From: Loxodes magnus
Lineage: Eukaryota > Ciliophora > Karyorelictea > Loxodida > Loxodidae
Reading direction: 5' to 3'
Assembly (NCBI GenBank): GCA_946699065.1
Contig: CAMPDV010000064.1
Coordinates: 62,001 to 126,000, forward strand
DNA: 64,000 bases
The notes under the pieces are model-generated. The model ran no database searches, had not been told where the DNA came from, and saw nothing but the letters and a program-made list of their open reading frames with translations. Positions 2,641 to 62,089 of the stretch are shown piece after piece (position 1 is the first letter of the stretch; the number at the start of each line of letters is the position of its first letter). A program made the translations under genes and the position numbers.

Positions 2641-2646
2641 AAAAAT

Positions 2647-18100: not shown

Positions 18101-18149
18101 TATAACTTATTAATAAGATTTTCACTGCTTACCTTGATTTCTTTTTCAG

Positions 18150-21010: not shown

Positions 21011-21245
21011 TATCACTATAATTAATTATTATTTTATTTTAGTATCATTTTGAGTGTTTTAAATTTAAAAAGATTATTTGAATTTTTAATTAAGATCCTT
21101 CAATAATCAGACTTATTTAATATAAGATAAATAATCCTCTAAAAACTTTATAAAAACTTTAAATAAGTATGTTTTAGATATTTTGATAAGCAAAATTTTT
21201 AATTTAATAAAGCTGAAATTTTTGTTTATTGTTAATTTAAGTTTT

Positions 21246-23078: not shown

Positions 23079-23097
23079 TTTATTATAATTAATTATT

Positions 23098-23116
23098 TTA
23101 TCAGACTATTTATACT
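23098..23116 (-). promoter_or_regulatory. TATA-like promoter block of F-box gene 2
   Basis: Read on the minus strand this is GTATAAATAGTCTGATAAAA, about 25-40 bases upstream of the conserved ATG at 23078. The block is repeated upstream of every full-length F-box gene in the window, with a conserved AT-rich spacer ending ATAATAAAATGTAAAG at the start codon. Confidence 0.6.
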
Positions 23117-23459
23117 TTATTTATGTAAAACAGCTATATTTTATAAATAAAGTTTGAAGATTTAAATAAGCATTAGCCTATTTAAATAAATTAAATGATT
23201 AGTTGATTTAAGGATAATTAAGCTAAATATATTTAGTATATACTTAATTGTTTTAGAATAAAAGGAAATAAAAATAGTTTCTATAGCAATTATTAGAATG
23301 AGAGTAATTATTAGAGACTATTTTAATAATTAATTGTTTGCTAGATTTTTAAACTAGCTGTTCTAGTTTATTAAATTAAAATGATTTTACAGAGAAGATA
23401 ATATTATAGTAACTAAGATAATATTATTGATGCTAAGAGTTTTCTTAGATTTTTTAATA

Positions 23460-30391: not shown

Positions 30392-32221
30392 CTATTTGTA
30401 ATATTTTCTTTCAGGTTATTAACTATCATTCTCAACATTATGGCTAACTATCATTCGTACGAACTTCTATTTAAGTTTATTAGCCCACTTTTCCTTTATC
30501 TGTGTTCCTACAATTTATAAATATTTAAGACTTCTATAAAAAGGATATTTTTGTCCCTCTTAATCATAAAATGGAAAAGCTTCCTAAGTAAGATCTTCAA
30601 TAAAAAGTAGATTTAAAGCTTTTAGTTACTTAAATTTAGTTACTAATTGTATTACATCTTTATTACTTAGTTTACTTCCTTAAAAGTTTAATTCTTTTAG
30701 TTTGCTTATTTTAACTATTTCGTTTGCTCAATTTTCATCTAAGAATTTACAATATCCCAAGTCTAAGCTTTCTAATAATTAGCAGCTTCAATTAATTGAT
30801 TGTAAAGTCTTATATTTTAGCTTTTTCATACCATAAAGAGACAATTTAGTTAATTTCCTACAATTCTCGAAAATATAACATAGAGCTTTATTAGAAAGTT
30901 ACTTAATATGATTAAGAGATAGTTCTTCATAGTTTTATCCATAATCTCCAATCTTCTTCAAAGCATTGCTAGTAAGTTTATACAATAAAGTCAAAATAAG
31001 AGACTTTAAATTAGGACAGTTTTGCAATAAAGCTATCAAGTTGTTATCATTAAAATATAAGCAGCAATCAATATCTACATATTATAATTTATTATGCTAC
31101 TTTTAAAATAATTCTTATATTATATCTGCTTATAAACTTTGAGATTACATTAACTTTAAATGGCTAAGGCTATAGTTTTTTATCTTCAGTATGAACTAAT
31201 CTAAGGATTATTCTATTTAATAATATTTAATTTGTTTTATGTTTGGACATAAATCAATATACTTATCCATATTTTCATTTTAGTTTATATTTATTTCTTC
31301 TATTAAATTTCCATTTTATTTCAAATATTGCAACAAAATATCTTGATTAAGTCATTCACTAAATAAGTTTATTATCTTTAAATTTAAGTTTAAGCAGTTA
31401 TCTAGTAAAAATTTTCCTGTTATCTGATTTTATTTTTGGTATGAGATTTCTATGAATTATAGCCTAGTCAAATATTTTAAAAAGCTTAAATTTTCTTCTT
31501 ATAAAAATTAGATTTCTAAAACTAATTTTCTTAGATTTAAGCATTTTGCTATATATTCTTGAATAGTTCTATCTAAATTTATTAGTCTAGATAAATAAAT
31601 TTCTTATACTAGGCTATATCCTTTTTGGTTTAGGTTTAATTTTAGTTATAAAAAGCTTTTAATGTTTTGGTAGTTTTATTCTTATCAATTTTCTCCTTTT
31701 AAATCAATAGTACTAATTTACAAAATTCTAGTATCAGATTATAAAATTTATTATAGAGTTCAGTTAGTTTTATTTTTTACATAGTCCTAATTACTAGAAT
31801 ACTTCTTTATTTCTAACTTTTTAAATTAATATTTGAACTTATTAAGAAATTTATTAACTTATTGCAATCTACAGATGTCTCTATTTTTAAGGAACTAGCA
31901 AATATACTGAAGAATATAGTAATTGGAAATTAAGTTTGATTAGTTTTACTTTATCAATAGACTTTTTTCTAAAAGATGATCTTCTTAGTGAAAGTAATCA
32001 TTAAGTTCTTTTATTTAAAATGTTATTTCTTAATCTTTTTAACTTTTTAAACAGCTTTCTATCCTCTAGACTTAAGTTAAATCGTTTTGGTTTTGCGCTG
32101 ATACTTAAGTTTTTTGGAGAGTAGTATTAGGTTCTTATAGTAGATCAGAAGAGGGTTAAAAATTCTAGCTTTGGAGTGAATAACTTTAGTTATTAGTTGA
32201 TTAATCAGTCCTACTTTACAT
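30392..32221 (-). CDS. F-box/LRR protein 4
   Basis: A single 1830-bp frame begins at ATG 32221 (MQSRTDQSTNNQ). An F-box-like segment near residues 110-155 (YYILQYICQFLKNRDICRLQ) is followed by cysteine-type LRRs to the C-terminus (FVRMIVSHNVEND). F-box proteins normally join Skp1 through the F-box and bind substrates through LRRs; that role is inferred. At the column where genes 2, 6, 7 and 9 stop, this gene has AGA, so I ended it at the next TAG (30392). A TAA-TAA pair a few codons earlier could also be the stop. Its last 300 bp match gene 5 almost exactly. Confidence 0.75.
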
Positions 32222-33387: not shown

Positions 33388-33600
33388 CTTATAAAGGCCT
33401 ATATTAAGATTAATAAATTACCATTATTTACATTATAAGTAATTATTTATTTTCTTGAATGAATATATCGTAGGAAATTAATTTGAATAACTAGATAGAA
33501 TTGCTTTTAAAATTTGAAGTTTATAAGATAAAAGTAAACCCCATAAAAATTAAAATATTGGAGCTAAGATAATTTCTGTTATTATAAAATATATAAAATG

Positions 33601-34341: not shown

Positions 34342-35049
34342 ATGGATAACTTCTTGTAAAAAACCTCTTCTCAAAAGGATTCATCTTACGAGCAATAAAA
34401 TATATTTTAAGCACTCCAATTGCTGTAATAAGAAAATTTCAACCTCCTAAGAACAGTTCAAGAACTAGAAAGAAAAATAGAGCACCTGATGTACAATTAA
34501 TAAGAATAAATGAAAAATGAAAATAAATAGACAGGAAGCGACAAGGTAGGAGAGCTAGAGAAAAAATTCGACTAATTCGCAGAACTAACTGAAAGCATAT
34601 TTTTGCAAAATATACAGGGGAATGATCCTATGGATGTGGAGAAACAGCCTGCAATAAAAGATATTCCCTATAGGAAAATACTGTGATGCTGATACTGCAA
34701 GAGACCAGGACACAAAGTTAGAAACTGCTTCTAATTCCAATAAAAACAGAAAGCAGAAAATTTAAAGCTATGAAGAACCATAAGTAAACTATATTGCACT
34801 GCGGAAGGAAGAATTTATAGAAGAAAGATGTACGCAGGGCATGAAATTTTAGAAGACGTGATTATAGCAGGACAAAGAAGAAATGAACAAATGCTTGGAA
34901 TGAAGATTGATTGAAGCAAGATTACGAAAATAAAAAAGGGAGAACACAGCACAGATAGATATGTGCTTCAAGAAGAAGCCCCAGAAGAAGACTGGAAATG
35001 GAAATTGTAACAAAACTATTAAACTTTAAAAAGTGACGAACCTTATTGA
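34342..35049 (+). CDS. Gag-like zinc-knuckle protein, intact
   Basis: From ATG 34342 one frame of 235 codons runs to TGA 35047-35049. The order is a Gln-rich N-terminus, a coiled coil (about residues 35-95, with LLRTVQELERKIEHLM), GNDPMDVEK, a retroviral-type zinc knuckle CWYCKRPGHKVRNC (C-x2-C-x4-H-x4-C, preceded by IL and a TGA-encoded Trp), a basic region, and EEDWKWK near the end. Zinc knuckles of this type bind nucleic acid in Gag and in LINE ORF1 proteins. No reverse transcriptase or integrase follows, so it is either a solo ORF1/Gag or a domesticated protein. It abuts the 3' end of F-box gene 5, as its broken relative abuts gene 2. Confidence 0.75.
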
Positions 35050-35149: not shown

Positions 35150-37009
35150 TTATTTGTAATATTTTCTTTCAGGTTATTAACTATCATTCTCAACATTATG
35201 GCTAACTGTCATTCGTACGAATTTCTATTTAAGTTTATTAGCCCACTTTTCCTTTATCTGTGTCCCTACAATTTGTAAATATTTAAGACTTCTATAAAAA
35301 GGATATTTTTGTCCCTCTTAATCATAAAATGGAAAAGCTTCCTAAGTAAGATCTTCAATAAAAAGTAGATTTAAAGCTTTTAGTTGCTTAAGATTGTTTA
35401 TTATTTCTATAATGTCTTAGTTACTTATTTGCACTCCTTAAAAATTTAATTCTTTCAATTTGTTTATCTTCACTATTTCTCTTATTCAATATTAATCTAA
35501 GAAATTGCAATATGCAAAATTTAAACTTTTGATTAGTATACAATTTAAATTCATAGACTGTAAAGTTTTATTTTTTAGCTTTTTCATACCTTTAAGAGAC
35601 AATTTAGTTAGTTTTCTACATCTCTCAAAAATATAACGTAGAGTTTTATTAGAAAGTTATCTAATCTAATTAAGAGATAATTCTTCATAGTTTTATCCAT
35701 AATCTCCAATCTTCTTCAAAGCATTATTATTTAGATTAAACAATAAAGTACATGTAAGAGACTTTAAGTTAGGACAGTTTTGCAATAAAGCTATCAAGTT
35801 GTTATCATTAAATTACTAGCAATAATCAATCACTATATGTTATAAATTATTATGCTACTTTTAAAATAATTCTTATATTATATCTGCTTATAAACTTTGA
35901 GATTACATTATTTTTAAATGACTAAGGTTATAGTTTTTTAATTTCAGTATGAACTAGTCTAAAGAATTTTAAATTTTATAAGAGTCAATTCTGTTTAATT
36001 TAGGACAAAAATCAATATATTTATCCATATTCTTATTAGAGTTAATGCTTATTTCTTCTATTTATCTTCCTTTTTATTACAAATATTGTAATAAAAACTC
36101 TAAATTTATTCCTTCATTATATACTTTTAGTAGCTTTAAATTTAAACTTAAGCAATAGTCTATTAAAAATTTTCCTACTATCTAAGTTTAACTTAATATG
36201 ATGATTTCTAAGAATTATAAGTGAATCAAGTTTTATAAAAAGCTTAAATTATCTTCTTATAAGCAGTTAACTACTATAACTAATTTCTAAACATTCTAGC
36301 ATTTTTATATATATTCTTGAAAAGTTCTATCTAAATTAGTTAGTCCAACTAGATGAATTTCTTGGACTAGTTTAAATCCTTTTTAATTTAGATTTAACTT
36401 TACTTATAAATATTTTTTTATTTCTTAGAAAACTTTTTCTGGCTAGTTTTCTTTATCTAAATCCTAAGTGTTAATATATAAAATTTTAGTATCAGATTAT
36501 AAAATTTGTTTTAGAGTTCAGTTTATTTTGGTTTAAACATAGTCATAGTTACTAGAATATTTCTTTATTTCTAACTTTTTAAATTAATATTTAAATTTAT
36601 TAAGAGACTAATTAACTTATTGTAATCTACAGATGTCTCTATTTTTGAGGAACTAGCAAATATACTGAAAAATATAAGAATTGGAAAGCAAGGTCTGCAT
36701 ACTACTTTTAAACTGTTTATTATACTATTTTTCATATGAAATGTGTTCTTAGTTTAAATGTTCATGAAATCTCTTAATTGGAAGTGTAAGTTCTTAATCT
36801 TTATACTCTTCTTTAGATGTTAATGAATTTATTAAATTGTTTTTTTATCTTAATTCTTATGTTAAATTGCTTTGAATTTGAGTTGAGATTAAGTTTTCTT
36901 GGAGAGATTAAGTTGATTCTTTTTATTATAGATCAGAAGTAGCTTATTGGTTTGAATTATGTATTTGTTAAATTTGATTGGTATTTTGTTAATCACTCCT
37001 ACTTTACAT
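35150..37009 (-). CDS. F-box/LRR protein 5
   Basis: An 1860-bp single frame from ATG 37009 (MQSRSDQQNTNQ) with an F-box-like segment (SYIFQYICQFL, about residues 115-160) and the LRR array. I placed the end at TAA 35150-35152, the column where gene 4 has TAG; a TAA-TAA pair slightly earlier is an alternative. The last 300 bp are nearly identical to gene 4, but the front half is more diverged, so the two look partly homogenised by gene conversion. Confidence 0.75.
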
Positions 37010-42565: not shown

Positions 42566-44404
42566 TTACTCTAGTTTTAAAGTTAATTCCTTGACGTCAC
42601 TCAAAATTTTCATTCTATCAAACTTTTGCTTGAGCTCTATAATCCAATCCTCTTTTATCTTCGTTCCTTTTATATTTAAGAATTTAAGATTTCTATAAAA
42701 AGGGTATTATTATCCCTCATAATCATAGAATGGAAAACCTTCCTAAGTAACATCCTTAGTAGATAATAAAGATAATTTTTTTAGATATTTACAATTAGCT
42801 ACTATTTAAACTACATCTTTATTACTTAGTTGCATTCCTTATAAATCCAATTCTTTTAATTTATTTAATTTAGCTATTTCGTTTATTCAATTTTCGTTTA
42901 AGAATTTACAATATGCCAAGTCTAAATTTTCTATTAGTATACAATTTAAATTAATAGACTGTAAAGTTATATTTTTTAGCTTTTTCATACTTTAAATAGA
43001 TAATTTAGTTAGTTTTCTACATCTCTCAAAAATATAACATAGAGTTTTATTAGAAAGTTATCTAATCTAATTAAGAGATAATTCTTCATAGTTTTATCCA
43101 TAATCTCCAATCTTCTTCAAAGCATTATTAGTTAGCTAAAACAATAAAGTACATGTAAGAGATTTTAAGTTATGACAGTTTTACATTAAAGCTATCAAGT
43201 TGTTATCATTAAATTACTAGCAATAATCAATCACTATATGTTATAAATTACAATTCTATTTTTTAAATAATTCTTATATTGTTTCTGCCTATAGACTTTG
43301 TTTAATTCTTAAATGGTTTAGTTTAAAGTTTTTTAGTTTCAGTATGAACTAATCTTATGATTATTCTATTTAATAATAATTTATTTGCTTTATGTTAGGA
43401 CATAAATCAATAAACTTATCCATATTCTTATTAGAGTTTATATTTATCTCTTCTAATAAGTTTCCTTTTTATTTCAAGTATTGTAATAAAATCTCTAAAT
43501 TAATTCCTTCACTATATATTTTTAGTTCCTTTAAATTTAAACCTAAGCAATAGTCTATTAGAAATTTTCCTGTTATATTATTACATTTTAATACTGCTAT
43601 ATTCAAAAATTATAAATGAATCAAGTTTTATAAAAAGCTTAAATTTTCTTCTTATAAAAAGCTAATCTTTAAAACTAATTTTTTTAGATATAAGCATTTT
43701 GATAAATATTCTTGAATTGTTCTATCTTGATTAGTTAGTCCAATTAGATGAATTTCTTGAACTAGTTTATATCCTTTTTGATTCAGATTCAATTTTAGTT
43801 CTAATTAGTTTTTTATTTATTGGAAAATTTTATTTGTCTTATTTTGTTCATCTCAGTCTTAGGTATTTATGTATAAAATTTTATTATCAGATTGTAAAAT
43901 TTGTTTTATAGTTCAGTTAAGTTTATTTTAAACATAATCATGATTACTAGAATATTCTTTTATTTCTAGCTTATTAAATTAATATTTGTACTTGCTAAGA
44001 AATTTATTGGCTTATTATAGTCTACCGATATCTCTATTTTTGAGGAACTAACAAATATACTGAAGGATATAGTAATTGGAAATTAAATTTGATTAGCTAT
44101 TTTTTAATATTTTAGTGATTTACTTTTCTTAAGAAATTTGTTCTTAGTTTAAGTGTTAATGAAGTCTCTTCATTGGAAGTATTATTTCTTAATTATTTTA
44201 CTCTTCCTTTTATATTTTTTAGTTTTATTTGCTATCTTTTTATATTTAGTCTTAAGTTAAATCTTTTTGAACTAGTTTTATAATTTAAGTTTCAAGGAGA
44301 GAAAAATTAGATTCTTCTTATTATTAGATGGAAGAGGACTAATAGTTTGAATCATCTATTTGATATGATTATTTGCTATTTTGCTATCCACTCCTACTTT
44401 ACAT
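42566..44404 (-). CDS. F-box/LRR protein 6
   Basis: A single 1839-bp frame from ATG 44404 (MQSRSGQQNSKQ) to TAA 42566-42568. The F-box-like segment lies at residues about 111-155 (YYILQYICQFL), followed by LRRs of the cysteine type and the conserved end (WIIELKQKF, DRMKIL). The length equals genes 7 and 9 exactly, but the stop here is TAA where they have TGA; in-frame TAA elsewhere in the gene is Gln. Residues 90-330 are almost identical to gene 7, unlike the 3' half, which suggests gene conversion. Confidence 0.8.
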
Positions 44405-44423
44405 TTTATTATAATTTAATATA

Positions 44424-44442
44424 TTATCAGACTATTTATACT
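44424..44442 (-). promoter_or_regulatory. TATA-like promoter block of F-box gene 6
   Basis: Minus-strand GTATAAATAGTCTGATAATA upstream of ATG 44404. Confidence 0.6.
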
Positions 44443-44664
44443 TAAGTTATAAAAACGACTATATTTAACTACCTTTTATGATTTAAATAAGCATTATCAT
44501 ATTTTAATTTAATCTAATATAATTTAAGTTAAGCATTAGAAATAAACTAATTTAAACATGTAAAATATTCTATTACTTTTCTATAGTTACTCCTTACAAT
44601 TTACTTACCTTCAAATCTTATTTATTAATTAATAAGTCATTATTTTTATATTTTTATAATTGAA

Positions 44665-44950
44665 AAGGTGATGGGAGCTGATATTTGCCTTCTTTACTAC
44701 ACTTTCTGGATTTATGGCTAGGAACAAGTTCCTTTTCTGTCGCTGAGAACGTCCCTAGTCAGAGTCATCTTCTGAAGGGAACGCTGTCTTTGAGATTATC
44801 CCCTCTTAGTAGGGGCTTGAAGCCTGGCTGCTCATTGCGATTGAGTTTCTTTAGCAGCTGTGCCTAGAGCACAACAGAATATTCCCGTTATTCCTTAAAA
44901 AGAGAGTGTTTAGCCGTCTAATTGGAAAGGAGTTTACGGTCCCAAAAAAC
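44665..44950. other. GC-rich island upstream of F-box gene 6
   Basis: About 285 bp far richer in GC than its surroundings, with CCCCTCTTAGTAGGGGCTTG (a CCCCT...AGGGG hairpin) and CCCTAGTC. It has no match to the other elements that I can see and no TTTA tail. It may be an unrelated short insertion or a non-coding RNA gene. Bases 44950-45820 are plain AT-rich DNA. Confidence 0.4.
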
Positions 44951-45824
44951 TATTTAAATTGAAATTAATAAATGGTTATATTTTATAAAGAAAATGATGC
45001 TTATTACTTATTTATAGTAATAATTAATTATAAAATGTAAGATGCTTTCAGAGACTAAAAATGATTGTATAATACTATTAATATTTGTATATTGTACTTA
45101 TTTCTAAGATTTTTTACCATATGCAAATAAAATAGTTACTATATGATACTCTCTTTAAAATGGTATTGCAAAGATATTAAAATTAATAAAAGTTTCCAAA
45201 GTAATAAGATAAAGTATTTTTAATATTATATTACTATATTTAAATTTATACTTTTATTAAGGAAAGATTAATATTATCTACTTTCTAATTACAACTTTCA
45301 CTTATAAATATATTTTATGCTGTTCTATTGCATAAATTAATAAACTAAACTTAAACTTTGTATTTGACTATTGAATCTTCGTACTTTTCTTGAAGTAATA
45401 ATTAAAAAGTTGAAAGAAATGAAAATAAATAGTTGTAAGTTATTATCTTAAGCTATTTGATTAGGATTATTTAATAATTAAAATAATATTTATGCATTTT
45501 AATGTTTTATATTGTTTCTAATTATTATTTTATATTAATTTACTTACCTCAAATTACTTTTATTTAAGTATTTAATTCTAGAAATATAAATCTTTCTATT
45601 TAAGAAATTTAAAAAAGAAACTTTCTGGTAAAGATAGTTTAGTAATGGCATTACATAATTTAAATTATATATTTTATATTAACTTTAGAATATATTTTGT
45701 AAGCAATAACTAATTAATTTATTTAAATCAATAAAAGATAAATCAACCATATTGCTTTTAAAAATATTAGATACTTTATACTTATAAAACTAATTACGAA
45801 CATTATTTATTATATATCAAATTT

Positions 45825-46237
45825 ATGTAACCTGCTGTCAGGATAACTAGTAGGTTATCTATCGCACCGTATACTCCATTGCAACTTATTTACCGCTAGA
45901 TATCACCACGGGGAAGGGTGGAAAACCTCGCTAGGGACAAGCCTTACTTGTCTCATGGTTCTCACTAATAATATGAACGTTTGATTGATGGGCCTTCTAG
46001 CTAATTACTTAGCTACTATTATTATTTGGATCTTATTCAATAAAATTAGAAAATTTGGTTCAAGATTAAAGAATAATTTTTATAAGTAGATTCCCCATTT
46101 GGAGAGCTGACGTGACTCATTGGACTACTAGAATTTTAACAAGAAGTAAGAGAACACTTTTTAAATATTAAATATTAATATTGAAAGAGCTGCACACCAA
46201 CGAGGTGCTATGCTCTTTATAATCATATTTATTCATC
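45825..46237 (+). mobile_element. SINE-like element, copy C (diverged)
   Basis: This is the most diverged copy. It keeps CACCACGGGGAAGGGTGG, GATGGGCCTTCTAGC and CCCCATTTGGAGAGCTGAC. The downstream CCCCG partner of the loop is lost, but ACAAG...CTTGT can form its own stem. The 3' hairpin AGAGCTGCACACC...GGTGCTATGCTCT keeps pairing through a different base combination from copy A. A short ATTT tail follows. Confidence 0.65.
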
Positions 46238-46239
46238 AA

Positions 46240-47900
46240 ATCTCAGAGACAGAGATAATATAATAATTTATGTCCTTAAATAAAAGAGAAATTAAAATCA
46301 GTTTTCGTTGTACCCAAAACTAAATACTTTCTGCTTAAATCAAGCAAGCGATTAAAAAGCAGAATGTAATATTCAAGTTTTTAATAAGATAACTACTAAT
46401 AAATTATTGAAATTGCATGAAAATTACTTAAATAAAAAAATTGTACCTATTTAAATAAGATAATACTTAATAAGCATTATTCATCAACAAGACTATAAGA
46501 TTTAATTATATAAAATCTAATAGATTTAAGCACAAGAAATTTCTTGATTTGGGTCAATGATCTCTGTTGTTTAATTGCAAATTATAATAATTCTGGTATT
46601 ATTTATTGATTATTTATAAATTTTTTAGGGTTCTGCTTAAAAAAAATTAATGTAAACTTAATAAAAATTTAAATTTATTTAGTTTACATTTCTTCTTATA
46701 CCTTTATAAATTTCTCTGATAATTAATTTAAAATGGTTTTGAACCTTTTCAGATTCCATAAAGTCTTTATTGATTTAAATTTATTGGATTTTTTTTCTTT
46801 ATTTAGGATAAAATGATTAGATTCCGCTTTTACTTCTTTAATTTACACAATTATCTCTAAAAAATAAATTGCTGTTAGTTTTCTTTTTTAACTAGTATTT
46901 TCTTGTTGAATCTTCACTGCAGTTTATTGTATTATCTTAATTTTTCATTTAATTATATGATTAGCGTTTTAAGGACCAATTTTACAAAAAACCTGCTATG
47001 TCTCCTTTTAATAATTCCTTTTTATGTTGCTTTAATTTCCCTTTTCTATTAAAAAGGTTGATTTTATAATAAATAGTACTTTTGCTGACTTTTATTTTAG
47101 TTATCTTATTCAATCTTAATTAATTTTGAATATAATTAAAATAAATCATAGTATACATTCTTATCTTTAGTATAATTAATAATCTAAATTATTTTAACCT
47201 ATCTAGTTATTTATGTTTCTAATTTTTAGTTTAATTAGAGAAAAGCTTTTATTTAAAACTTCTAAAGATTCTTCTTTCTTAACATCTGGAACAATTTCTA
47301 AATGCTAATTAAATATTTACTCTTACTATAATTCCTAAATTTCTTTATAGTATAATTTTATATTTAAACTTTAGCTATTTTAACCTTTTGTTTTGTAAAG
47401 ATTCTTAATACTTAAATATATAAAATTTTGCTTAAAAAGTAGTTTTCTTTAGTATAATATTTAGGTATTTTTTAGTTGGGAATGATTAATATAGTAAATA
47501 GTTGATTAATTAAGAAATGAAAATAATTAAAAATGTAATTTCTTATTGAATATAATCTTAAGCTAATGTTTAGCAAACTAGATAATATATTATAGTAATT
47601 TATTTATTCTATTTACTAATTTTAATTAATCTTATTTAAAATTCTTATTTTTAAATGATAAAATGTATACATATCTTTATAGTTAATTTTATATTTTTGT
47701 ATATTCTACAGTTATTATTTACTAGTTGTTTCATTTAATCATTTCAAATATTAAAGATAGATATTCTATTACTTTTATACTTTTATTATATAAATTATAA
47801 GTTGCTCTAGAGGAATGGAAAGTTATCTTTTTTAAGTGTTTATATTTTAATTTATTCTAATTAGTAGAAAAGTTTAAGTTTATCTTTGTTTCTAAGCTTT
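46240..47900. other. AT-rich spacer with a possible HTH-like ORF
   Basis: On the minus strand near 46850-47170 a frame reads KVSKSTIYYKINLFNRKGKL and KKELLKGDIAGFLQNW, which loosely resembles the helix-turn-helix start of a Tc1/mariner-type transposase. No catalytic domain could be confirmed. The rest has no recognised feature. Confidence 0.22.
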
Positions 47901-49739
47901 TCATTCAAGTTTCTTTACTTTTTTCTCAACATTATGGCGAACTGTCATTCGTACGAACTTCTACTTAAGTTAATTAGCCCACTATTCTTCTATCTTGGTT
48001 CCTTGAATATTTAAATAATTAAGCTTTCTATAGAAAGGATATTCTTATCCCTCTTAATCATAGATTGGAAAAGCTTCCTATGTAATATTTTCATGGTATA
48101 AAAGGCCTAAAAGTTTTAATTATTTACAATTAGTTACTATTTTTATTATATCTTTATTGCTTAATTACACTTCTTAAAAATATAATCCTTTTAGATTGTT
48201 TAATTTAACTATTTTATCTATTCAATTTTCATTTAACAATTTACAATATGAAAAGTCTAAACTTTCTAATAGTTAGCAGTTTTAAATCATAGACTGTAAA
48301 GTCTTATTTTTTAGTTTTTTAACTCCAGTCAAACTTATTTTTGTTAGTTTACCACAATTCTCAAATATATAACTTAAAGTTTTATTGGAAACTTAGCTTA
48401 CGTATCTTAGAGATATTTCTTCATAATTCTTTCCATAATCTCCAATTTTCTTCAAAGCATTATTAGTAAGTTAAAACAATAAACTCAATTCAAGAGACTT
48501 TAATGAAGGACAGCTTTACATTACAGATATCAAGCTGGTATCATTAAAACTGTAGCAATATTAGATTTGTATTCTTTATAATTTATTATGCTATTTAGAA
48601 AATAATTCTTATATTGTTTCTGCTTATAAAAGCTGTTTAACTTTTAAATTACTTAAGTTAAAGTTTTTTAACTTCAGTATGAACTAATCCAATTCATTTT
48701 CTATTTAATAAGAGTCAATTTTGCTTAAATTTGGACATAAATCAATATATCTATCCATATTCTTATTAGAGTTTATATTTATCTCTTCTAATAAGTTTCC
48801 TTTTTGCTTCAAGTATTGTAATAAAATCTCTTTATTAAGTCCTTCACTTTAAATATTTAGTTCCTTTAAATTTAAACCTAAGCAATAGTCTATTAGAAAT
48901 TTTCCTGTTATCTTATTACATTTTAATGCTGTGATATGCAAAAATTGTAAATGAATCAAGTTTTATAAAAAGCTTAAATTTTCTTCTTATAAAAGGCTAA
49001 TCTTTAAAACTAATTTTTTTAGATATAAGCATTTTGATAAATATTCCTGAATTGTTCTATCTAAATTAGTTAGTCCAATTAGATGAATTTCTTGAACTAG
49101 TTTAAGTCCTTTTTAATTCAAATTTAGCTTTATTTACAATTAGCTTTTTATTTCTTGGATAACTTTGATAGTCTTAGTTTGTTCATCTCAGTCTTAGGTA
49201 TTTATGTATAAAATTTTAGTATCAGATTGTAAAATTTGTTTTATAGTTCAGTTAAGCTTATTTTAAACATAATCATGATTACTAGAATATTCTTTTATTT
49301 CTAGCTTATTAAATTAATATTTGTACTTGCTAAGAAATTTATTGGCTTATTGTAATCTACCGATATCTCTATTTTTGAGGAACTAACAAATATACTGAAG
49401 GATATAGTAATTGGAAATTAAATTTGATTAGCTATTTTTTAATATTTTAGTGATTTACTTTTCTTAAGAAATTTGTTCTTAATTTAAATGTTAATGAAAT
49501 CTTTTCATTGGAAGTATTATTTCTTGATCTTTATTACCTTTTGAAGATATCTTTTAATTTGATAAACTGTCTTTTCATTCTTAGTCTTAAGTTAAATCGT
49601 TTTGTTATAAATTTGTCATTTATTTATTTTAGAAAGGTGTATTAGATCCTAGCTATTATTGATCAGAAGAGAACTGATGATTCGATTTATCTGATGGTTA
49701 ACTTTAGTTACCAGTTGATGAATCACTCCTGCTTTACAT
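47901..49739 (-). CDS. F-box/LRR protein 7
   Basis: A single 1839-bp frame from ATG 49739 (MQSRSDSSTGNQ) to TGA 47901-47903 (end FVRMTVRHNVEKKVKKLE). It contains an F-box-like segment and cysteine LRRs. In-frame TGA inside (for example QDQEWKD near residue 65) must be Trp, so TGA has two meanings within one gene. Residues 90-330 are close to gene 6. It is the nearest array member upstream of the intact LINE. Confidence 0.8.
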
Positions 49740-49757
49740 TTTATTATAAATATTTTT

Positions 49758-49777
49758 TTCATCAGACTATTTATACT
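49758..49777 (-). promoter_or_regulatory. TATA-like promoter block of F-box gene 7
   Basis: Minus-strand GTATAAATAGTCTGATGAAA upstream of ATG 49739. Confidence 0.6.
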
Positions 49778-49954
49778 AATTTATAAAAAACGGCTATATT
49801 TATATATAAATTTAAAGATTTAATTAAGCATTATCATTATTAACTAGCTTTAATTTAATATACTTTACTTTAAAATTAAATATAAAACTAAGCTAAATTA
49901 AAAATTAATATACTTTATTTGTTATCTTATAGCTATTCTCTATTACTTTATAAT

Positions 49955-50260
49955 TCAATATGGCACAGAAGGAGAATGGTACAACGAGCCTATCTTCAAG
50001 TCATTATTTTAGCTATTGTGACTTTTAATCGTTTCGTTTTGTGGCATATCTATTTAATAATTCTCGAGAAGATGAGGTTGGGATAAGAATAATTGTAGTA
50101 TAATCCTTCGCAATATCTTCAATGGATTTCAGAGTCGATGGTAACTTGGTATTGCCGTAGGATTAAATGAAGAAAATCAATCTTCAAACATAACTTTTGC
50201 GAGGATATTGTGGGTTGTACTTATTGAATTCTGGAAGTTCAAAATCCTGAGTTTTTGAAT
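49955..50260. other. GC-rich island between F-box gene 7 and the LINE
   Basis: About 300 bp starting ATGGCACAGAAGGAGAATGG, richer in GC than its flanks. The end with GTTCAAAATCCTGAG and the size resemble the other short elements, but no shared block was found. It may be a non-coding RNA or an element of its own type. Confidence 0.35.
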
Positions 50261-50489
50261 CTTAATTTTCTAATTTTCCGTAAATTAAATTTAAAAATTC
50301 TAAACTATTAGTTAAATATAAATACTAATTTAAATTTGTATTTATAAAGAAGTATTAATTTAATATTTATTTGGAAAATTAAATATTATTATTATTTCTA
50401 ACTTACATTTTGTAAAATATAAATGCTAATAAAATTAACTTTTTTAAATTAAAATATCTATGTTTTAATATTATATTCCTTTCCTTAGG

Positions 50490-50565
50490 TATAAATAAAT
50501 AATTAATAAATGTGATTATAGAACGTGTAAAACCTCAATGGTGCGCATTTCTTTAATAAAGATTT
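50490..50565 (-). repeat. Inverted retroelement 3' end at the LINE 5' border
   Basis: On the minus strand: AAAGAAATGCGCACCATTGA, closing arm ACACGTTCTATAATCAC, then a TTTATT tail. It faces away from the plus-strand LINE that begins within 50 bases. It may be the remains of an older insertion, or a 5' inversion made during LINE integration. Confidence 0.55.
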
Positions 50566-50614
50566 TTAAAGTAAAAAAAATCTTTCTGAAATCTTCCACA
50601 GTAAATTAAAAAAA

Positions 50615-53600
50615 ATGGACATGTACTAAAATTCGCAAAATTTCTTTCTTAGCGACTCTTCTTTATCTAAAAATAAAGAAGCTGCTTTCTAAAACGATGA
50701 GCATAGGCAGATGCTCAACTACTTTTATGAAATAGACATGGAATCGCTGCAACTTAAATCCGTTGATAATATCATGAAATTACTAAGAAATTTGCTAAAG
50801 AGCTGCAGTTAATGCCAAATTAATAGATATCTTCGAATTCCACTAAGACAGCTTGGCAATTCTTTAAAACGGGGACATTAATTGAAGACTAATCTCAAAT
50901 ATAGGAAATATACTTATAGGTAAAAAGACTAGCTTGTTACTTCAACCTCTACGATGGTATCTAAAATATCCAATATACAGTAAGATACTTTAGATACTTA
51001 GGATATTTAAGATATTTCTTTAATTAAAAACTAAAATTAAATTTAAATACAAAATTAATAAGAGACTATAAAAATTCAACAATTCAATACACAAAATAAC
51101 ATAAAAAGTCAATAGCAGATTTCAATAGACATTTAAACTGATTACTAAGAGAAGTTTGATATTACATATTTAACTGATCTTGAGATTTAAAATGCGTAAC
51201 TTTAAGAAAAAATTGCAAAATTAAAATATAAAATTTAAAGCAAGATAGAAGAGGCAAATACTTTTGAAAATTAAAGGATAAATGAAAGCAAAAATCTTAA
51301 ATTTCGAATTTAAAAACTCATAACTAAAAATAATTCTCTGTAAGAAAAGCTAATACATATATATGAGTAACACAATAAAGAAACTTTAAACATTAAATCA
51401 CAATATAAAATACACTTAGAATAATACCAAAATTATTTATTTAAAGCTCAAAAGTAAATTAAGAAAATCTAGAATAAAAATTAAATCTTAAGGTTTGATA
51501 ATTAGTAGAAATAGTTAATGCTTTAGTCCAAATAATTTGTAAATAATGCTACAAATAAATAATAATCAATATAAACGAATACTGATCTTTCTTTAACTTA
51601 AATATAAGAATTGGAAACTTAGAGTTAACTTCTCACTTAGACTTAATAGCAAAGTATAGTAAAACAAGCTATGCTTAGTGAGGAGCTAATGAACATGACA
51701 CTATCATTTAAACTACAAGATGAGGCAATACTTGCTTCCAAGTAAGAAGCCCAAAATATTATAAACAACTTGGTTACTCAAATTTAATTCATTCAAGCTG
51801 AATTGAGTAAATGTAATTTGAGACATAATGAAGTATAATAACATCTTAGGGAGGTAGAAACTCTTAACTAAAATCTCAAAGGTGAAAATTTTCATTTATT
51901 AAGCAAAATAGATCAGATTGACTAAAAGGTACATTCACTCACAGTCAATTGCTAGTAACAACAGGCTTAGTGTTAATTATTACAAAATGAGAATTATTAA
52001 ATATCATAGGAACTGAGCTTTCAAAAAAATAAATATGCCAAATCAGTCAAAAGCATTTTTACATAAACAATCACTCCTCAGGCATAGAATGAATAAACAT
52101 AAATTGAAATTCAATTCAGCAACTAAATTTCTCAAGCAACTATATCGACTTTAGATTTAACTACTGGTACAGACTTATTATTCTTAGATCAATCTACCTA
52201 GTGCGACTTCGTTGAATTGAAGTATACAAAGTTGTAGAATTTATATGATAAATTAAACAAATAATTTATCAATTAAGATATATAGAGTGTCTACTAAAGG
52301 CTTGTCTCGTGTTAATAAAAATAGTTTTGAGAAAAGGAAACATAAACCTGTTTAAAAATTAATAGCAAAGATGCTTGAACATGAACAAAAAAAGGGAAAT
52401 TAATAAGCAATTATAGTTAGACAAGAATCATGGAATTAAAGAATTAGGTTATTTAGACTTAAAATTCTATCAATGCTAAGGATGAAGGAACAATAACAGT
52501 AGTTACCAATCATTAGCTAGTTGCTTCTTAACAAGAACTATAAATCACAAAATAGAATAATGGAAAACTGTAAGAGTAATATAATGAATTAAACGGATTA
52601 TATGTTTAACTCATGCAGGATTATGAGCATCAAGTAGAATTGAAGCTAAATGTCTATGCATAAATTTCAGAAATATAGAGAAAATAATAAGATGTTAAAA
52701 CTCAATCTTACTTGAAAGAAATAAAATGAAACGCTTCAACATAAACATTTTTAAGTGATTAAATTTAAGAAGATTAGCAGATTGAAATTTTAGAAAATTC
52801 AAATATCTAGACATCATATGTGATGAATTGGGATAGCCAAACAAAATTTGGAAAGAGAAGTTGAAGAGATGCCAAATTTAACCAAGACACTTTAAACTTA
52901 AAATAGTCAAAATTTGGGTTTAATGAAATAAATATTGAAGAGATTTTAAATAAATACGAATTTAAAGACGCCTAACTAATTCAATTTATAAGGTCCAATA
53001 AATGATGAAATTAGAATCTTTTCACTTTAGTAGGCAATAGATTTATAACTTTATCTTGCAAACTAAACCATGCTACGTGTGATGGAAATGAAATAGATAT
53101 AAAAATCGATAATAAATTGAGTGAAAAGTACGATTCATTGACATTATTCATTATAATAAGTTACAGGTAATATATCAAAAATTGCCCCAAATTGCTTAAC
53201 ATATAAATTCATCAAAATGAGAAGATTCTCTGTATTTATGAGCCAGGAATAAAAGGAGGAGTTTTGACTTCATCATAAGAAATTCATCGATTTATAAAAA
53301 ACGGAAATTATATAGTTAAAACGCTGCTATAAACTGATTTTAGAATTAACTATATTGTCCTTTAAAAATAACTAAGACTCAAAGGAGGTGTAGAGAACAA
53401 TGTAGAATAACCGTATTAATGCAAACAAGAATTTGAGAATTAAGAAATAAAGATGCCTATCGATAAGCAAAGAGAGATAGGCATAATAAAGCTTGGACAT
53501 ATTAACATAAATGGAATTGGAAGCAAGCAATTAAACGTGGAAGAATTTATACGAAATAATGACTTAGACATTTTCTCAATTAATGAAACGTGATAAAAAT

Positions 53601-56600
53601 AAGACTATCCTCCAATACTTATTAATGGATATAGGACCTATTTCAAGAACTCAGGAAAAGGAGGAGGAGTTTGCTTAATTGTTAGAGATTAACTTAATAG
53701 CACGGAATAGAATAGCATATAACAATTAGCTCAAGAGAGGTTCGTTACAATCAAACTAGATAATATATTCATAACATCTTGTTACATGCCAGATAACAGC
53801 AAGAGTGAAAATATAAAAGACGAAGCATATGAATATATAAATGTATTCCTTAATTCTTTTCCTGACAACTCACATATATTATTAGGAGATTTTAACGCAC
53901 TACTATAAGGCTTTGGGGATAACCCTATTAACAACTATGACAATACAAATAGATTCTAAGAATTCATTCTCTAAAACGATTTAGAAATAATAAACGATGC
54001 AAATATGAACACATGTTTACATAAAGGGAATAAAAATATGTATTGCAACGATTATATTGTCATCAGTAATCACTTGAATATGAATTAATTTAGAAATTTT
54101 CAGGTTCATAATTATAGCTTATTTTCAGATCATATTCCATTCACAGTTGAATTTGTATACCATACTCATCTTCAAACTGAAAAAATAAAAGTGAGAAAGT
54201 ACAAAATAAGTAGACTGTAGGATCCTATTGATAGATTTATCTATTAGAATTCATTCAAAGATTAAGCAGAAGTATTCTTCCTAATTGATAGAGATAACTT
54301 AGAAGATTAATACACTTATATTAGAGACTGCATTTAGAACAATGCAGATTAAGTTTTAGGCTCATTTATCCCAGACCCGAAGTATAATAGACTTCCTAAG
54401 GACCTCACATAAAAATATATCGAAGCAAAGAGAGCAAATTAATTGTACAAAGAAACTTTAGCATATATAGGGAGGAATAACTAAGAAATCATTGATCTTC
54501 ACTAAAGAGCGAACACATTATGAAAAAGCTTTTAGCATCATTTATGAAAATTTAAAAAACAAAAGGCCAAAAACAGATTCCTACTCCTCAATGAAACCAC
54601 AAAAGATATGTTTTCTTAAGCAAAGAAAATACTTAACCCTAGACAAAGAAATTTGATGAACTTTAATAAGGAATTGAAGGACTAATTTGTAGAAGCATGG
54701 GAAAATTAGGTATTTAGCAAGCATTCGAATTTAACTAACCAATAGATTGAACTAAGTAACTAGAAAATAGATGCAATTTATGAAAATAACATAGAAATTC
54801 AAAATTAACCCTTTTCTTACTTATAAAATTTCGATCCTTTTACAATAGAAGAGATTATCTAACTTATAAGTCTAATTCCTAATGGTAAAGCAGCAGGGCC
54901 AGATGGAATAAAAGGAGAACTGCTAAAATATGCAGGATATTATCTAGCGTTGATGCTTCATTCTTTTATAAATAACATGCTTAGAATTGGAAGGATTCCT
55001 GAAGAGCTTAATACTTCTATCATAATCCCCATTTTCAAAAAAGGAAGTAAAGACGATTGAAAAAACTGACGCCCTATTTCCCTTATCAATACTATTTTGA
55101 AATTATATGATAAGGCCCTTACGAAGAGACTCTACTAAATAATTTATGAAAGACAGTTAATCCACTCAAGCTAAATGGGGTTTATGAAGAACAAATAAAC
55201 CACCTAATAAATATGAGTGATCCAATAAATCATAGATCTTTATCGAAAACAAGCGAAAGGAAAAACTAAACTGATTGCAACTTTAATTGACGTAGAGAAA
55301 ATGTTTGATTCTATTGAAAGAAGAATTCTTTTTAAATAACTAAGAAGAGTCAAATTACCACTAGGTCTCATCTTGGCTTTAGAATCATTTTATAATAACT
55401 TAACTACTTCCTTTATTATAGACGGAACAAATTCTAAGAAATTGAAATTTAGCAATGGAGTGATGTAAGGAAGTTCGCATGGACCTGTGCTTGCATTATT
55501 ATACTATGACATTGTCATTAGACATATAGAAAACAAAGGAGAAATATTAGGATTCAGATGTGCTAATTTTAAGAATAGGTTCACTTGTAGAGGTTGAGCT
55601 GACGATTTAATACTATTATCGAACTCATAAAAAAATATGTAGTCACTTATTAATGAAGCAAACTCCATTTTCAATTAGACATTTCTTAAAATAAATGTCT
55701 CCAAATGCGAAACGTTATAGTTTTTAAAAAAGAAAAGCAAAGAAACAAAACTAGACTTAAAAATAGGAGACCAAGCAATAATTTAGAAACAGCAAGTCAC
55801 ATATTTAGGGGTGATCCTTCACCAAAAGAAGAATCTAATTAACCATTGCAAATACGTTGCTGCAAACTATCTTTCAGCAATTAAAAAGGCAGTATTTGCA
55901 TTATCAAGATATAGAAACGTAACACCTTGAAATTTCAAAATGCTTTGTAGACTGTTCACGCTTCCTAAAGCAGAATACGGTGGGGACTTAATACCTTGGA
56001 CTGTGCAGTATGGAATAAATGGAATCTTGAACAGAATTGAAAAGAGCATGAGATTAATAGCCAGAAAAGCCTTCTAATCAGCAGGAAATACGTTTAATGA
56101 ATCATGCTTTGTAGACCTCAATTGGATGCCATTCAAACACATGATGGCTCTTAAGTATTTCAGGTTTTTCTTTAAGATTAGAAATGAAAGCTAAAATCAA
56201 CCTCAATCATCTATTGGAATATTGTTTGAGAATAATTATAAAGAGGGATATCAATATTATGATGAAGTTTAGAAACTGGCCTCATTTTATAAAATAGAAA
56301 TTGATAATAAAGAGCACAATAACAACTTAATTTAATTCAGTAAATATGTGTAGACATAAATATAAAAGACATATTTTGAATTAGCTCTTTCAAGATTCAG
56401 CAGAATGCCTACTGCATAAATATATACAGAACAATTTTAAAACCTAAGATAATTCCCCAAAATAACATACACGAAATTAAACAAAAAATATTTGAAAGAA
56501 ATAATTTGTATCTATAAGATTAGAAGCCAGTCTTACGCATTTCGAAAGACTCTGAAAGATCGAAATTATATTATTGAAAACCCTTTTTGTATATGCGGAG

Positions 56601-57133
56601 AATATGACACTCTCCAACATGTAATGGAATGTATATATTACATTGATATAAGAGAATGATTGGTCTCCAAAATTGGTTAATGTGATATTTTGAAACTAAT
56701 AAGTTACGATTAACTATATATAAACTTTTTTCCTAAGAAAAAAATAGAAATGGTGGATGAATAAATAAAAATATTCATTCAAATGTTTATTAAAAGGAGG
56801 CGAGAAATTCTATAACAAGAGAAAGAAGAAGAGCAATACGAGAAATAATAAAAAGAAGCAAATCTAAGAATAGAAAATTTTAATGAAGAGAATGAAGAAT
56901 AATAAAAACAAGAAAACAAAGAATAAGATGTCCAACAAAATTAGATGTAAAATGATGAGGAAGAAGAAGATTGGAACGAAGAGGAAAACGATAGCGAAGA
57001 TGAAGAAGAAGAAGATTGACAACAGAAAATAGAAAAAAATGAAAGTTAGCTTGAAAATGAACAAGAAAGGAAATACTTAGAAGAAAAAAAAAACCTAAAC
57101 TAGAAAATTAGTTCTGAAGAGCAATAAACTTGA
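50615..57133 (+). CDS. Intact LINE polyprotein: coiled coil, APE endonuclease, RT
   Basis: One unbroken frame of 2172 codons runs from ATG 50615 to TGA 57131-57133, with TAA/TAG as Gln and TGA as Trp. Residues about 100-700 are Gln-rich coiled coil, probably the ORF1 function fused in frame. The endonuclease follows: LGHIN (960), INETW (989-993, Trp is TGA), LGDFNA (1090), SDHIP (1170). The reverse transcriptase follows: NGKAAGPDG (1424), DDWKNWRPISL (both Trp TGA), DVEKMFDS (about 1560), and the catalytic box as WADD (1661-1664) instead of the usual F/Y-ADD. Near 1991 comes a CCHC-type FCICGEYDTLQHVMEC, then an acidic coiled tail. It would copy its RNA into nicked DNA in the nucleus. The undamaged frame suggests recent activity. 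A second TGA at 57193 is another possible stop. Confidence 0.92.
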
Positions 57134-57470
57134 TATACAATAACATTTAAAAACAATATAATACCTTCAATTGGAAGAACATATTCTGAAAATTGAAGGT
57201 ACCACAAATTTTTTTGTTAAATTTAAATTTAAATCTTCCACAGTACGAGCATTCCCTTGTAAATTTGTCTTCTATAGGGCCGGGATAAGAATGCTATCCT
57301 AAGAGACCTTAGTATCTGAAATATTTCGTCATTAATGCTACTTGACGCCTCTTCGATCTTGTCTTCTCTTCTCTTGGCTAGTTCTTCACCTATGAGATAC
57401 TTCCTGGTACCAGAGTTTAAGTTAGTTTCAGTTGGAGTATTGCTCCTCTCTATTTATTTATATTTAATAA
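57134..57470 (+). mobile_element. 3' UTR and tail of the intact LINE
   Basis: It contains AAATCTTCCACAGTA at 57229, the same bases that lie 30 bp before the LINE start codon (50589). A GC-richer stretch follows and ends GGAGTATTGCTCCTCTC plus TATTTATTTATATTT, a shorter relative of the hairpin-plus-TTTA end on the other elements. Either this is the LINE's own 3' UTR, or a short element whose head copies the LINE 5' UTR is attached here. Confidence 0.6.
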
Positions 57471-57720
57471 TAAAATATCTTTATTTATTCCATTACTAAA
57501 TATTATTAGTACTTAGAATTTAATCCTAAGCAGCAATAAAGTAAAATATTTCCTTTTATCTATTTTTAATTTAATCTGATATTGCTAATAATTATAATTT
57601 ATCCAAATTTTATATTAAACTTAAACTTTCATCTTATAAACTCTCAATATTAACGATAATTATTTAATATTTAAGCATTCTGTTATGTGTTAAGTATAAA
57701 TTTATATATACTGCAAAAAG
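57471..57720 (-). pseudogene. F-box/LRR gene 8, internal fragment only
   Basis: About 250 bp match the middle LRR part of the family (compare 27310-27550 in gene 3: order AATCTCTTTATT, TTAGTACCTTTAAATTTAAG, AGCAGTAGTCTAGTAAAA). Both ends are missing; the left end is the LINE tail, so the LINE probably inserted into or beside an already decayed copy. No matching remainder was seen left of the LINE. Confidence 0.55.
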
Positions 57721-57724
57721 AGGC

Positions 57725-58970
57725 ATAGTTATAGAATAATTAAATAGTAAAAAGCTTAAATATAATATATTAAATTGAATAAATACCTTATTAAAGAAAT
57801 TATTTCCCTTTATAAACTAAGAACTTACTCTTATAGATTCTAATATTAATTAAGATAGCATTTCATTTATACCTAAACAAAGTGTTTCTTGTCTATGTGA
57901 CTAAGGATTAATAATTAGAGAATATCTTTAATAGCCTTTAATATAAATTTTCATTTTAGGAATCACCCAATATTAATTACTTATAGGAAAGAATGTTGAA
58001 AATAATTTTAGACTAATTTAATTAGAATTTCTAAGAATCTAACTTACTAAAGTATATAAATTAGTCAAAATCTTATATAAGGAATTATTTAATAGAAGAT
58101 AAGAAATGCTTTAGTTGAAAAACGAAGCATAAATAAATTCCTCAAACAGAAAAGAAATCTTAATTTAAACATAATTTACATATACACAAAGCGTAAATAT
58201 GTAATTATGTTCTAGTCAAATAAGAAACTTTTATTATTATTATTAAATAACTACAAAAGCTTATTTTGTCTTATCTTAAAATAATTACATTTTTTTATAT
58301 TTATTTTAATAAATCTAAAAGCATCATTATTAGATAATTTAAAGTAAAGAGATATACAAATAAATTTGATTAAAATAATGCTTAATAATGTATAAATATA
58401 TAAATTAACTAGGGTAATTAAAAATGTAATATAATCAAAAGTTTATAACTAAAATATATATATTTAGTAAATTAAAAACATTTATTTAAACTTTATTAAA
58501 TTAAACATAAAATACCATTAATTAATAAATTTATCTTATTACACTCTAAATTAATTTAATTAGAGTAAATTTTTAATTTTACAAATGAATTAAATAATGT
58601 CATGTAGTTATCTAGGCTTATAATATAATTCTTTCTTACAATATAAAGCTATTAACTGTAAACAGTAATTAGAAATTAAGCTTTTTAAAATATTTTTCCT
58701 GAATTAAACTAAACTTTACTAAATTAAATATTTTTATATTTCTGTTATAATTTTATTGCAAGCATTACTTATTTATTCCTATTATAGTTTTATTTTATTC
58801 AAATTCAATCAATAAAAGAATGTACAATAAGAATAAATCATATTAGAAATGTAAGCAAAAAATGGTTATAATTAAGCTTAAATGGAATGATACAATTAAC
58901 TATGTTATTTATTATATAGTATTTATTTAATTTGTGTATCTTTAAATAAGTTTACAGTTTTTTCCAAATA
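57725..58970. other. AT-rich spacer, nothing recognised
   Basis: Between the gene 8 fragment and gene 9. No motif, repeat of another element or convincing codon pattern was found. Confidence 0.4.
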
Positions 58971-58974
58971 TCAC

Positions 58975-60813
58975 TCATTCTTTCACTTTATTTTTCTTGC
59001 TTTAAGAAAAAATTAGCATTCTTGCAAATTTTTGACTAGTTTAAGTAGCTCATTATTCACTTATTTATGTTTCTCTAATATTTAATAATTGAAGATTTCT
59101 ATAGAAGGGATATTCCTAACCATTATAATCATAAATTGGAAAAGCTTCTTGAGTAATATTCTCAGCTAAACTTAGGTTTAAAGCTTTTAACTATCTGCAA
59201 TTAGTTATTATTTTTATTATATCTCTGTTGCTTATTTGTGATGCTTAAAAGTGTAATTCTTTTATTTTGCTTAATTTCACTAGTTCGCTTATTCAATCTT
59301 CATTATAAAATTTACAATATCCCAAGTCTAGATTTTCTAATAATTAGCAGCTATAATTCATAGATTGTAAAGTCTTATTCTTTAATTTTTTCATGCCTTA
59401 TAGAGATAATTTAGTTAGTTTACTACAATTATCAAATATATAGCATAAAGTTTTATTAGAAAGCTATGCAACATGATTAAGAGATATTGCTTCATAGTTT
59501 TATCCATAATCTCCAATCTACTTTAAAGAATTATTAGTAAGCCCATAAAATATAGTCAAACTAAGGGACTTTAAATTAGGACAGTTTTACATTATAACTA
59601 TCAAGTTGCTATCATGGAATTATTAGAAGTATCAAAGTTCTATATGTTATAGTTTATTATGCTACTTAGAAAAAAATTCTTATATTGTTTCTACTTTTAA
59701 GCTTTGTGGTTAGAAAACTGTTAAGTGACTTAGGTTAAAATTTGTTAGCTTTATTATAAACTAATCTAATGATTATTCTATTTAATAATATCTAATTTGC
59801 TTTATGTTTGGACATAAATCAATATACTTATCTAAATTATTATTAGAGTTAATCTATATTTCTTCTATTGAGCTTCCTTTTTATTCCAAGTAGTGTAATA
59901 AAATCTCTTGATTAAGTCCTTCACTAAATAGTTTTAGAACCTTTAAATTTAAGTTAAAGCAGTAGTCTAGTAAAAACTTTCCTGTTATCAAGTTTTTATT
60001 TTTACATGAGATTTGAATGAATTACAAATGAGTCAAATTTTATAAAAAACTTAAATTTTCTTCTTATAAAATATCGGATTATATTAATATTAATCTTTAG
60101 AGCTTATAACATTTTGATATATATTCTTAAAAAGTTCTATCTAAATTTGCTAATCCAGAAAAATTAATTTCTTATACTAATTAATATCCTTTTTCATTTA
60201 GATTTAACTTTAGTTGTAAGCATTTTCGTATTTCTTTATAATTTTTATCTGGCTAGTTTTCTCTATCTCAATCATTAGTACTAATAAATAAAATTTTAGT
60301 ATCTGATTGCAAAATTTATTTAAGGGTTCAGTTTATTTTATTTTTTACATAACTGTAATTACTTGAATATTTTTTGATTACCAACTTTTGAAATTAATAC
60401 TTAAACTTATTAAGAAATTGGCTGACTTATTATAATTTACTGATATCTCTTTTTCTAAGGAATTAGCAAATGTATTAAAGAATATAAGAATTAGAACATA
60501 AATTTGATTGACTTCTCTTTCTCAACTTACTACTTACTTAAAAAAAGTGTTCTTATTGAAAGTAATAATTCATTTCTTTTATTTGAAATGTTGTTTCTTA
60601 ATCTTTTTAATCTTCTTCAACTAATATTTTGTTCATTAAGCTGATTTTTTATATTTACTCTTATTTTAAATCTCTTTGAGTCTCAGTTTTTATTTAATTA
60701 ATTTAGAGAGGTTTATTAGATTCTTCTTATTATTGATCGGAAGAGGACTATTAGTTTGATTCGTGTAGTGTATAATTTTAGCTTCTATTCAATTAATCAC
60801 TCCTACTTTACAT
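58975..60813 (-). CDS. F-box/LRR protein 9
   Basis: A single 1839-bp frame from ATG 60813 (MQSRSDQLNRSQ) to TGA 58975-58977 (end NKVKE), the same length and stop column as genes 6 and 7. F-box-like SYILQYICQFL, then LRRs. It is more diverged from the others than they are from each other, so it is probably outside the recent conversion events. The role is inferred to be SCF substrate recognition. Confidence 0.78.
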
Positions 60814-62035: not shown

Positions 62036-62089
62036 CTTTAACTTATTAATAAGATTTTCACTGCTTACCTTGATTTCTTTTTCAGTTTT

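Follow-up and report, generated by a model that had tools for sequence, protein, structure and literature searches.

Sequence evidence for UAA, UAG and UGA as sense codons inside Loxodes magnus genes and for UGA as their usual end

The genes in a 64,000-nucleotide stretch of the Loxodes magnus genome (C64:62001-126000, hereafter the window) almost certainly follow the karyorelict code of NCBI table 27, in which UAR (UAA and UAG) encodes Gln, and UGA encodes Trp internally and stops translation near the mRNA 3′ end. The assembly that holds this contig totals 705,730,643 bases and has 7843 contigs. The sense use of all three codons, the amino acids they stand for and UGA as the usual gene end are shown here by sequence, in a family of F-box genes, a long interspersed nuclear element (LINE) and conserved genes elsewhere in the assembly. 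The sense half has already been published for L. magnus, and the genetic code itself is known. The original prediction, made from the letters alone, had left the organism as a heterotrich, a karyorelict or an undescribed lineage. The karyorelict is the one that fits and the undescribed lineage falls away, as the organism is Loxodes magnus.

In the part of PMC11441545 available to us, L. magnus is annotated with table 27, UAR being Gln and UGA being Trp or stop. The texts of one open library, as far as they extend, describe the Loxodes code by UAR as Gln or by UGA as the sole stop. In the same library, no report on Loxodes F-box genes was found.

The window has a G+C content of 19–31% in 2 kb steps, and not a single standard-code reading frame of 120 codons (120 aa) is inside its 64 kb. 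Its minus strand holds eight copies of a 2 kb F-box/leucine-rich repeat (LRR) gene that are 74–84% alike, numbered as follows.

928..2655, minus strand: F-box/LRR copy 1, with a divergent 5′ part, ending in TGA
21195..23276, minus strand: F-box/LRR copy 2, frameshifted
26394..28103, minus strand: F-box/LRR copy 3, with a divergent 5′ part, ending in TGA with a TAA two codons earlier
30416..32221, minus strand: F-box/LRR gene 4, with a gene 5-like tail of TAA TAA and about 200 codons read beyond without TGA
35174..37009, minus strand: F-box/LRR gene 5, with TAA TAA near the end column and about 130 codons read beyond without TGA
42566..44404, minus strand: F-box/LRR gene 6, with TAA where its relatives have TGA and the next in-frame TGA 65 codons downstream; LRR_At5g56370 at 5.6e-9
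47901..49739, minus strand: F-box/LRR gene 7, with the end codon TGA
58975..60813, minus strand: F-box/LRR gene 9, with the end codon TGA and a TAA 9 codons before it

Genes 6, 7 and 9 are each 1839 bp from the ATG through the end codon, so their predicted coordinates, their length and the exchange of TAA (gene 6) for TGA (genes 7 and 9) at one column were all reproduced on the minus strand. The LRR half matches solved structures (F-box/LRR-repeat protein 2, 5.8e-18) and the LRR_At5g56370 profile in 5/5 copies tested, while the F-box domain itself is weak (F-box-like, 0.046 in 1/5 copies tested). Genes 4, 5, 6, 7 and 9, the five copies with a placed start, share a TATAAATAG box that precedes the ATG by about 36 bases and is followed by a short leader. 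Genome-wide, gene 7 has 2967 candidate relatives, 72 of which were scored.

The reading frame of this family behaves as a coding one. Over 42650-44300, it has the highest synonymous share of the six frames (29.5%) and the sole positive mean BLOSUM score, and its codon position 2 is the slowest. Among the eight paralogs, 19 columns carry a stop codon in six or more copies, and these include 8/8 columns for each of TAA, TAG and TGA. The TAA and TGA codons that were predicted to lie in frame inside these genes are in conserved columns.

Substitutions among the eight copies exceed the expectation 3.7-fold for TAA with CAA, 3.3-fold for TAA with TAG and 35-fold for TGA with TGG. The ratio of nonsynonymous to synonymous substitution rates (dN/dS) is 0.37–0.49 in 14 of the 19 F-box pairs computed and below 0.5 in 18 of them. 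Because TAA swaps mainly with CAA or TAG and TGA with TGG, and most pairs have a dN/dS of 0.37–0.49, the in-frame TAA, TAG and TGA read as sense codons and not as decay.

The other features used or met in the window are these.

53441..57142, plus strand: LINE endonuclease and reverse transcriptase with TAA, TAG and TGA all inside (RVT_1 2.9e-32, Exo_endo_phos 2.2e-10)
50516..53440, plus strand: upstream coiled-coil-like part that shares the LINE frame, with 73 TAA/TAG ahead of its first TGA (52328) and no Pfam family
5200..7600, plus strand: second LINE, frame-broken, with TGA at the same INETW Trp
20351..20750, plus strand: zinc-knuckle-like frame, CWYC with its Trp as TGG
34402..34780, plus strand: similar zinc-knuckle-like frame, CWYC with its Trp as TGA
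10373..13465, minus strand: gene combining a protein kinase and MORN repeats in a single frame, with TAA/TAG inside and a TGA (10375-10373) after the last MORN (MORN 1.5e-63, Pkinase 1.2e-34)

The LINE places TGA at the Trp of INETW (53579, and 5386 in the second LINE) and of NWRPI (55064), just as predicted. We scored domain profiles under alternative readings, with UAR as Glu, Tyr or Lys (for the kinase also Leu, Ser or Trp) and UGA as Cys, Gly, Arg, Ser or Leu (for the kinase Cys). The LINE RVT_1 gives 111.8 bits with UAR as Gln and UGA as Trp, against 105.0, 101.0 and 92.9 bits with UAR as Glu, Lys and Tyr, respectively. With TGA read otherwise, it gives 107.7 (Leu), 106.2 (Cys), 104.6 (Ser), 104.1 (Arg) and 103.1 bits (Gly), so Trp is the best of the six. 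In the two zinc-knuckle-like paralogs, the same CWYC Trp is TGG in one and TGA in the other.

The genome has two eRF1 genes (C196:19713-20081 and 54613-54981), and eRF1 aligns to the solved eRF1 at 8.3e-159 over residues 9-435. Of the 19 UAR codons in the alignment, 9 are at Gln positions, 3 each at Lys and Ser, 2 at Glu, and 1 each at Val and Thr. The Gln of its GGQ motif is TAA and the end codon is TGA. Where the solved eRF1 has TASNIKS, both genes read RAQNIKS and that Gln is TAA. The TGA stop is followed by a second in-frame TGA three codons downstream.

Several results weigh against these assignments. In the eight F-box copies, TAG swaps with AAG (2.2-fold over expectation) about as often as with CAA (2.3-fold), and TGA with GGA 2.4-fold. 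Among the remaining five F-box pairs, which are close and have few changes, four have a dN/dS of 0.19–0.30 and one has 1.09 on 11 changes. The small endonuclease profile Exo_endo_phos_2 scores slightly above the Gln/Trp reading of the LINE (37.8 bits) with UAR as Glu (39.3) or TGA as Cys (38.3) or Leu (38.0). In the kinase-MORN gene, UAR as Gln and as Glu cannot be told apart (MORN 207.4 versus 207.1 bits, Pkinase 120.4 versus 120.9), UAR as Lys scores lower on MORN (188.3) and higher on Pkinase (122.0), and TGA as Cys does as well as Trp. Lastly, a pattern for tRNA-Gln(UAR), which assumed a 5-base variable loop, is in no excess (29 matches versus 70 in the control), a result that carries no information.

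By the F-box swaps, the RVT_1 scores and the eRF1 alignment, UAA and UAG are Gln. UGA is likewise Trp inside genes by the TGA-TGG swaps, the RVT_1 scores and the CWYC paralogs. The prediction that stop codons are sense at Gln and Trp positions holds in the swaps, dN/dS, LINE RVT_1 and eRF1 alike.

At the gene ends, the codon is nearly always TGA. We fetched conserved gene ends as short pieces and placed the end codon for 75, of which 73 are TGA, 2 TAA and 0 TAG. The histones (29 of 31 matches) have 27 TGA and both TAA, while all the others have TGA only: tubulins 9 (of 150 scored matches), eRF1 2/2, dynein light chains 18/18 (20 of 21 matches fetched, 18 reaching the end), Skp1 5/5 (8 of 11 matches fetched, 5 reaching the end) and cyclophilins 12 (of 27 matches). 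For Skp1, some tubulins and some histone variants, the end was taken as the first TGA past the domain and is a weaker test. One dynein light chain (L153) has TAA two codons before its TGA end. On the window's own contig, C64:618455-934632 holds 21 matches to the tubulin C-domain whose scores are almost the same.

The F-box tails tell much the same. They were taken from 62 of the 72 scored relatives and the window copies 1, 3, 4 and 9, excluding the frameshifted copy 2, in a set of 67 rows with 39 distinct tails, where L043 and L144 are the same locus. TGA is present in 35 of the 39, at 17 to 19 codons past a common KF motif in 34 and at 25 in one. With 73/75 conserved ends and 35/39 F-box tails, UGA is the usual stop at gene ends. 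Of the predicted ends at all three codons, TGA stands, TAA is rare at most (2/75) and TAG does not hold (0/75 conserved ends and none in the 39 F-box tails).

The Trp codon changes toward the end of the F-box genes. In 23 distinct bodies from 29 loci, L045 excluded, Trp is TGA 78 times and TGG 3 times over codons 1-570, and TGA 6 times and TGG 20 times over codons 571-606, although the late Trp is mostly one aligned site and inflates the test value. This late swing is in line with what is expected of a UGA that is stop-competent near the end, and the scarcity of TGA-Trp over the final 36 codons agrees with termination that depends on the distance to poly(A). In L. magnus transcripts, UGA and UAA are both depleted near the coding ends, according to the part available of PMC11441545. 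The literature, in the parts available, ascribes the Trp reading of UGA to a tRNA-Trp(CCA) whose anticodon stem is shortened, and has release prevail at UGA only near the poly(A) tail owing to the short 3′ untranslated regions.

The tRNA search bears on the first of these statements. In the window, neither Aragorn found a tRNA nor Rfam at gathering scores any RNA. From a genome-wide tRNA family search with 42,786 candidates, 63 were scored. A scan of the 30 top loci gave Lys(UUU) at every one, in some cases together with Ala(UGC) and in several as tandem copies. We therefore sought Trp tRNAs by pattern. A pattern allowing the CCA or UCA anticodon matches 128 times genome-wide versus 6 in the control, and each of the 32 matches listed with letters has CCA. 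A single tandem array on C67 accounts for 31 of these. Among the matches listed, tRNA-Trp(CCA)-like tandem arrays are at C67:482323-491201 and C148:157295-168939, where the repeated unit is roughly 187 and 241 bases long, respectively. The UCA pattern alone has 1 match genome-wide versus 6 in the control, no excess over chance.

The absence of a UCA-decoding Trp tRNA had been named as grounds for refuting the sense UGA. It does not serve so, because UGA is read as Trp with the UCA pattern at chance level, and Loxodes is reported to have a CCA tRNA whose anticodon stem is 4 bp long. In other species, this form has been demonstrated to decode UGA, by the available parts of PMC13092985 and PMC12005148. 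In Condylostoma, no UCA tRNA was detected either, within the part available of PMC4967479.

Two other explanations of the codons fare poorly. A pseudogene reading, in which the in-frame stops come from a broken ancestral copy, has a negligible probability. The frame-broken second LINE and F-box copy 2 favor it to the extent that single copies may still be broken, but codon periodicity, synonymous swaps at the stop codons and dN/dS below 0.5 in 18/19 pairs speak otherwise, and the same in-frame stops occur within the eRF1, histone and tubulin matches. For the F-box family as a whole, a pseudogene origin is ruled out by the swaps and the conserved genes. A code of the Condylostoma type, with TAA, TAG and TGA all as regular terminators, is very improbable too. 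It would account for TAA in gene 6 versus TGA in genes 7 and 9 at one column and for the rare TAA ends elsewhere, but TAG ends none and TAA only 2 of the 75 conserved genes, TGA is in 35/39 F-box tails, and F-box copies 3 and 9 have TAA two and nine codons ahead of their TGA ends. Of the predicted Condylostoma-like termination, the context-dependent choice between sense and stop fits, whereas the three regular terminators do not (73/75 TGA, 2 TAA, 0 TAG).

The rare TAA ends and the tails without TGA count against the table 27 reading. Of the 39 distinct F-box tails, 4 lack TGA: those of gene 6, of a relative (L044), of gene 5 with three copies, and of gene 4. Seven loci carry these tails, and all but one, which is on C7689, share the window's contig. 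Two histone H3 variants, alike through HLTDM (proportions of nonsynonymous and synonymous differences, pN 0.038 and pS 0.69 over 101 codons), both have TAA right after it and no evident similarity beyond. One continues as TAA TAA TAA and then 49 codons without TGA, while the other reaches TGA after four more codons past its TAA. A sibling H3 has LTDV-TGA at the column where the variants carry TAA. By inspection of the fetched sequences by eye, no intron that would bring TGA in frame was found in genes 4 to 6 or the C327 H3 variant.

We tentatively consider, at somewhat less than an even chance, that UAA also terminates in a minority of L. magnus genes, with an eRF1 that can still recognize UAA close to the poly(A) tail. 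The conservation that stops at HLTDM-TAA, the one variant without TGA in the next 49 codons and the sibling TGA at the same column support this, as do the TAA of gene 6 and L044 at the TGA column and the TAA TAA of genes 4 and 5. The TGA-less F-box copies have a dN/dS typical for the family (0.44 for gene 6 versus L044, 0.39 for gene 4 versus gene 5). In the last ~18 codons of the F-box genes, there are 7 TAA, 6 TAG and 20 CAR versus 1025 TAA, 211 TAG and 366 CAR in the bodies, with a p value inflated by the relatedness of the sequences; the scarcer TAA is as published for L. magnus transcripts in the part available of PMC11441545.

Against UAA as a second stop, 73/75 conserved ends are TGA, and one of the two TAA-ending H3 variants has TGA 5 codons downstream. 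Gene conversion seems to shift the F-box tails between copies, as L044 has an L043-like body and a gene 6-like tail, and a plain loss of the stop may explain the TGA-less copies. UGA is the sole stop in NCBI table 27 and in the L. magnus paper (PMC11441545) as far as its available part goes. The TAA ends of the H3 variants and the scarcer TAA near the ends of the F-box genes may reflect a weak, end-dependent eRF1 recognition of UAA, and lost stops in a few copies fit too. If the rare TAA ends are true stops, they would show a route between one and three context-dependent stops, and the Loxodes gene models built on UGA alone would misplace those gene ends.

Some further features of the window stand apart from the code. 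The kinase-MORN gene uses TGG 16 times and TGA 4 times, its end TGA included, and its MORN repeats are duplicated internally (10482-10975 and 10989-11482, 97.8%). A 2 kb stretch is present in two copies, 95.65% alike, at 18103-20068 and 62039-64000. A GC-rich interspersed repeat of a size like short interspersed nuclear elements, 78–86% alike, is at 33579-34012, 39727-40076 and 45803-46233. The assembly has 3403 RVT_1 candidates, of which the best 150 were scored; the L. magnus macronuclear assembly is described with 706 Mbp and about 2700 RVT_1 copies in the part available of PMC11441545.

In comparison with the known codes, the genome agrees with the karyorelict code of NCBI table 27 (Loxodes magnus and Parduczia) in that UAR is Gln, and UGA is Trp inside and stop at the ends. 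It differs in that a few ends have TAA instead of TGA (2/75 conserved ends, 4/39 F-box tails without TGA). The Condylostoma magnum code, table 28, is alike in having all 64 codons as sense and in stopping where the mRNA end is close, but it terminates at UAA, UAG and UGA, while here it is nearly always UGA, and TAG is not seen as an end. In the Blastocrithidia nonstop code, table 31, all three codons are likewise sense and UGA is Trp via tRNA-Trp(CCA), but UAR is Glu and UAA the stop, whereas here UAR is Gln and UGA the usual stop. Should UAA, normally Gln, also act as a stop in a few genes (the H3 variant with TAA TAA TAA and the F-box genes 4, 5 and 6), which we hold possible but slightly doubtful, the karyorelict code would not be UGA-only but intermediate between table 27 with UGA alone and the Condylostoma code with all three.

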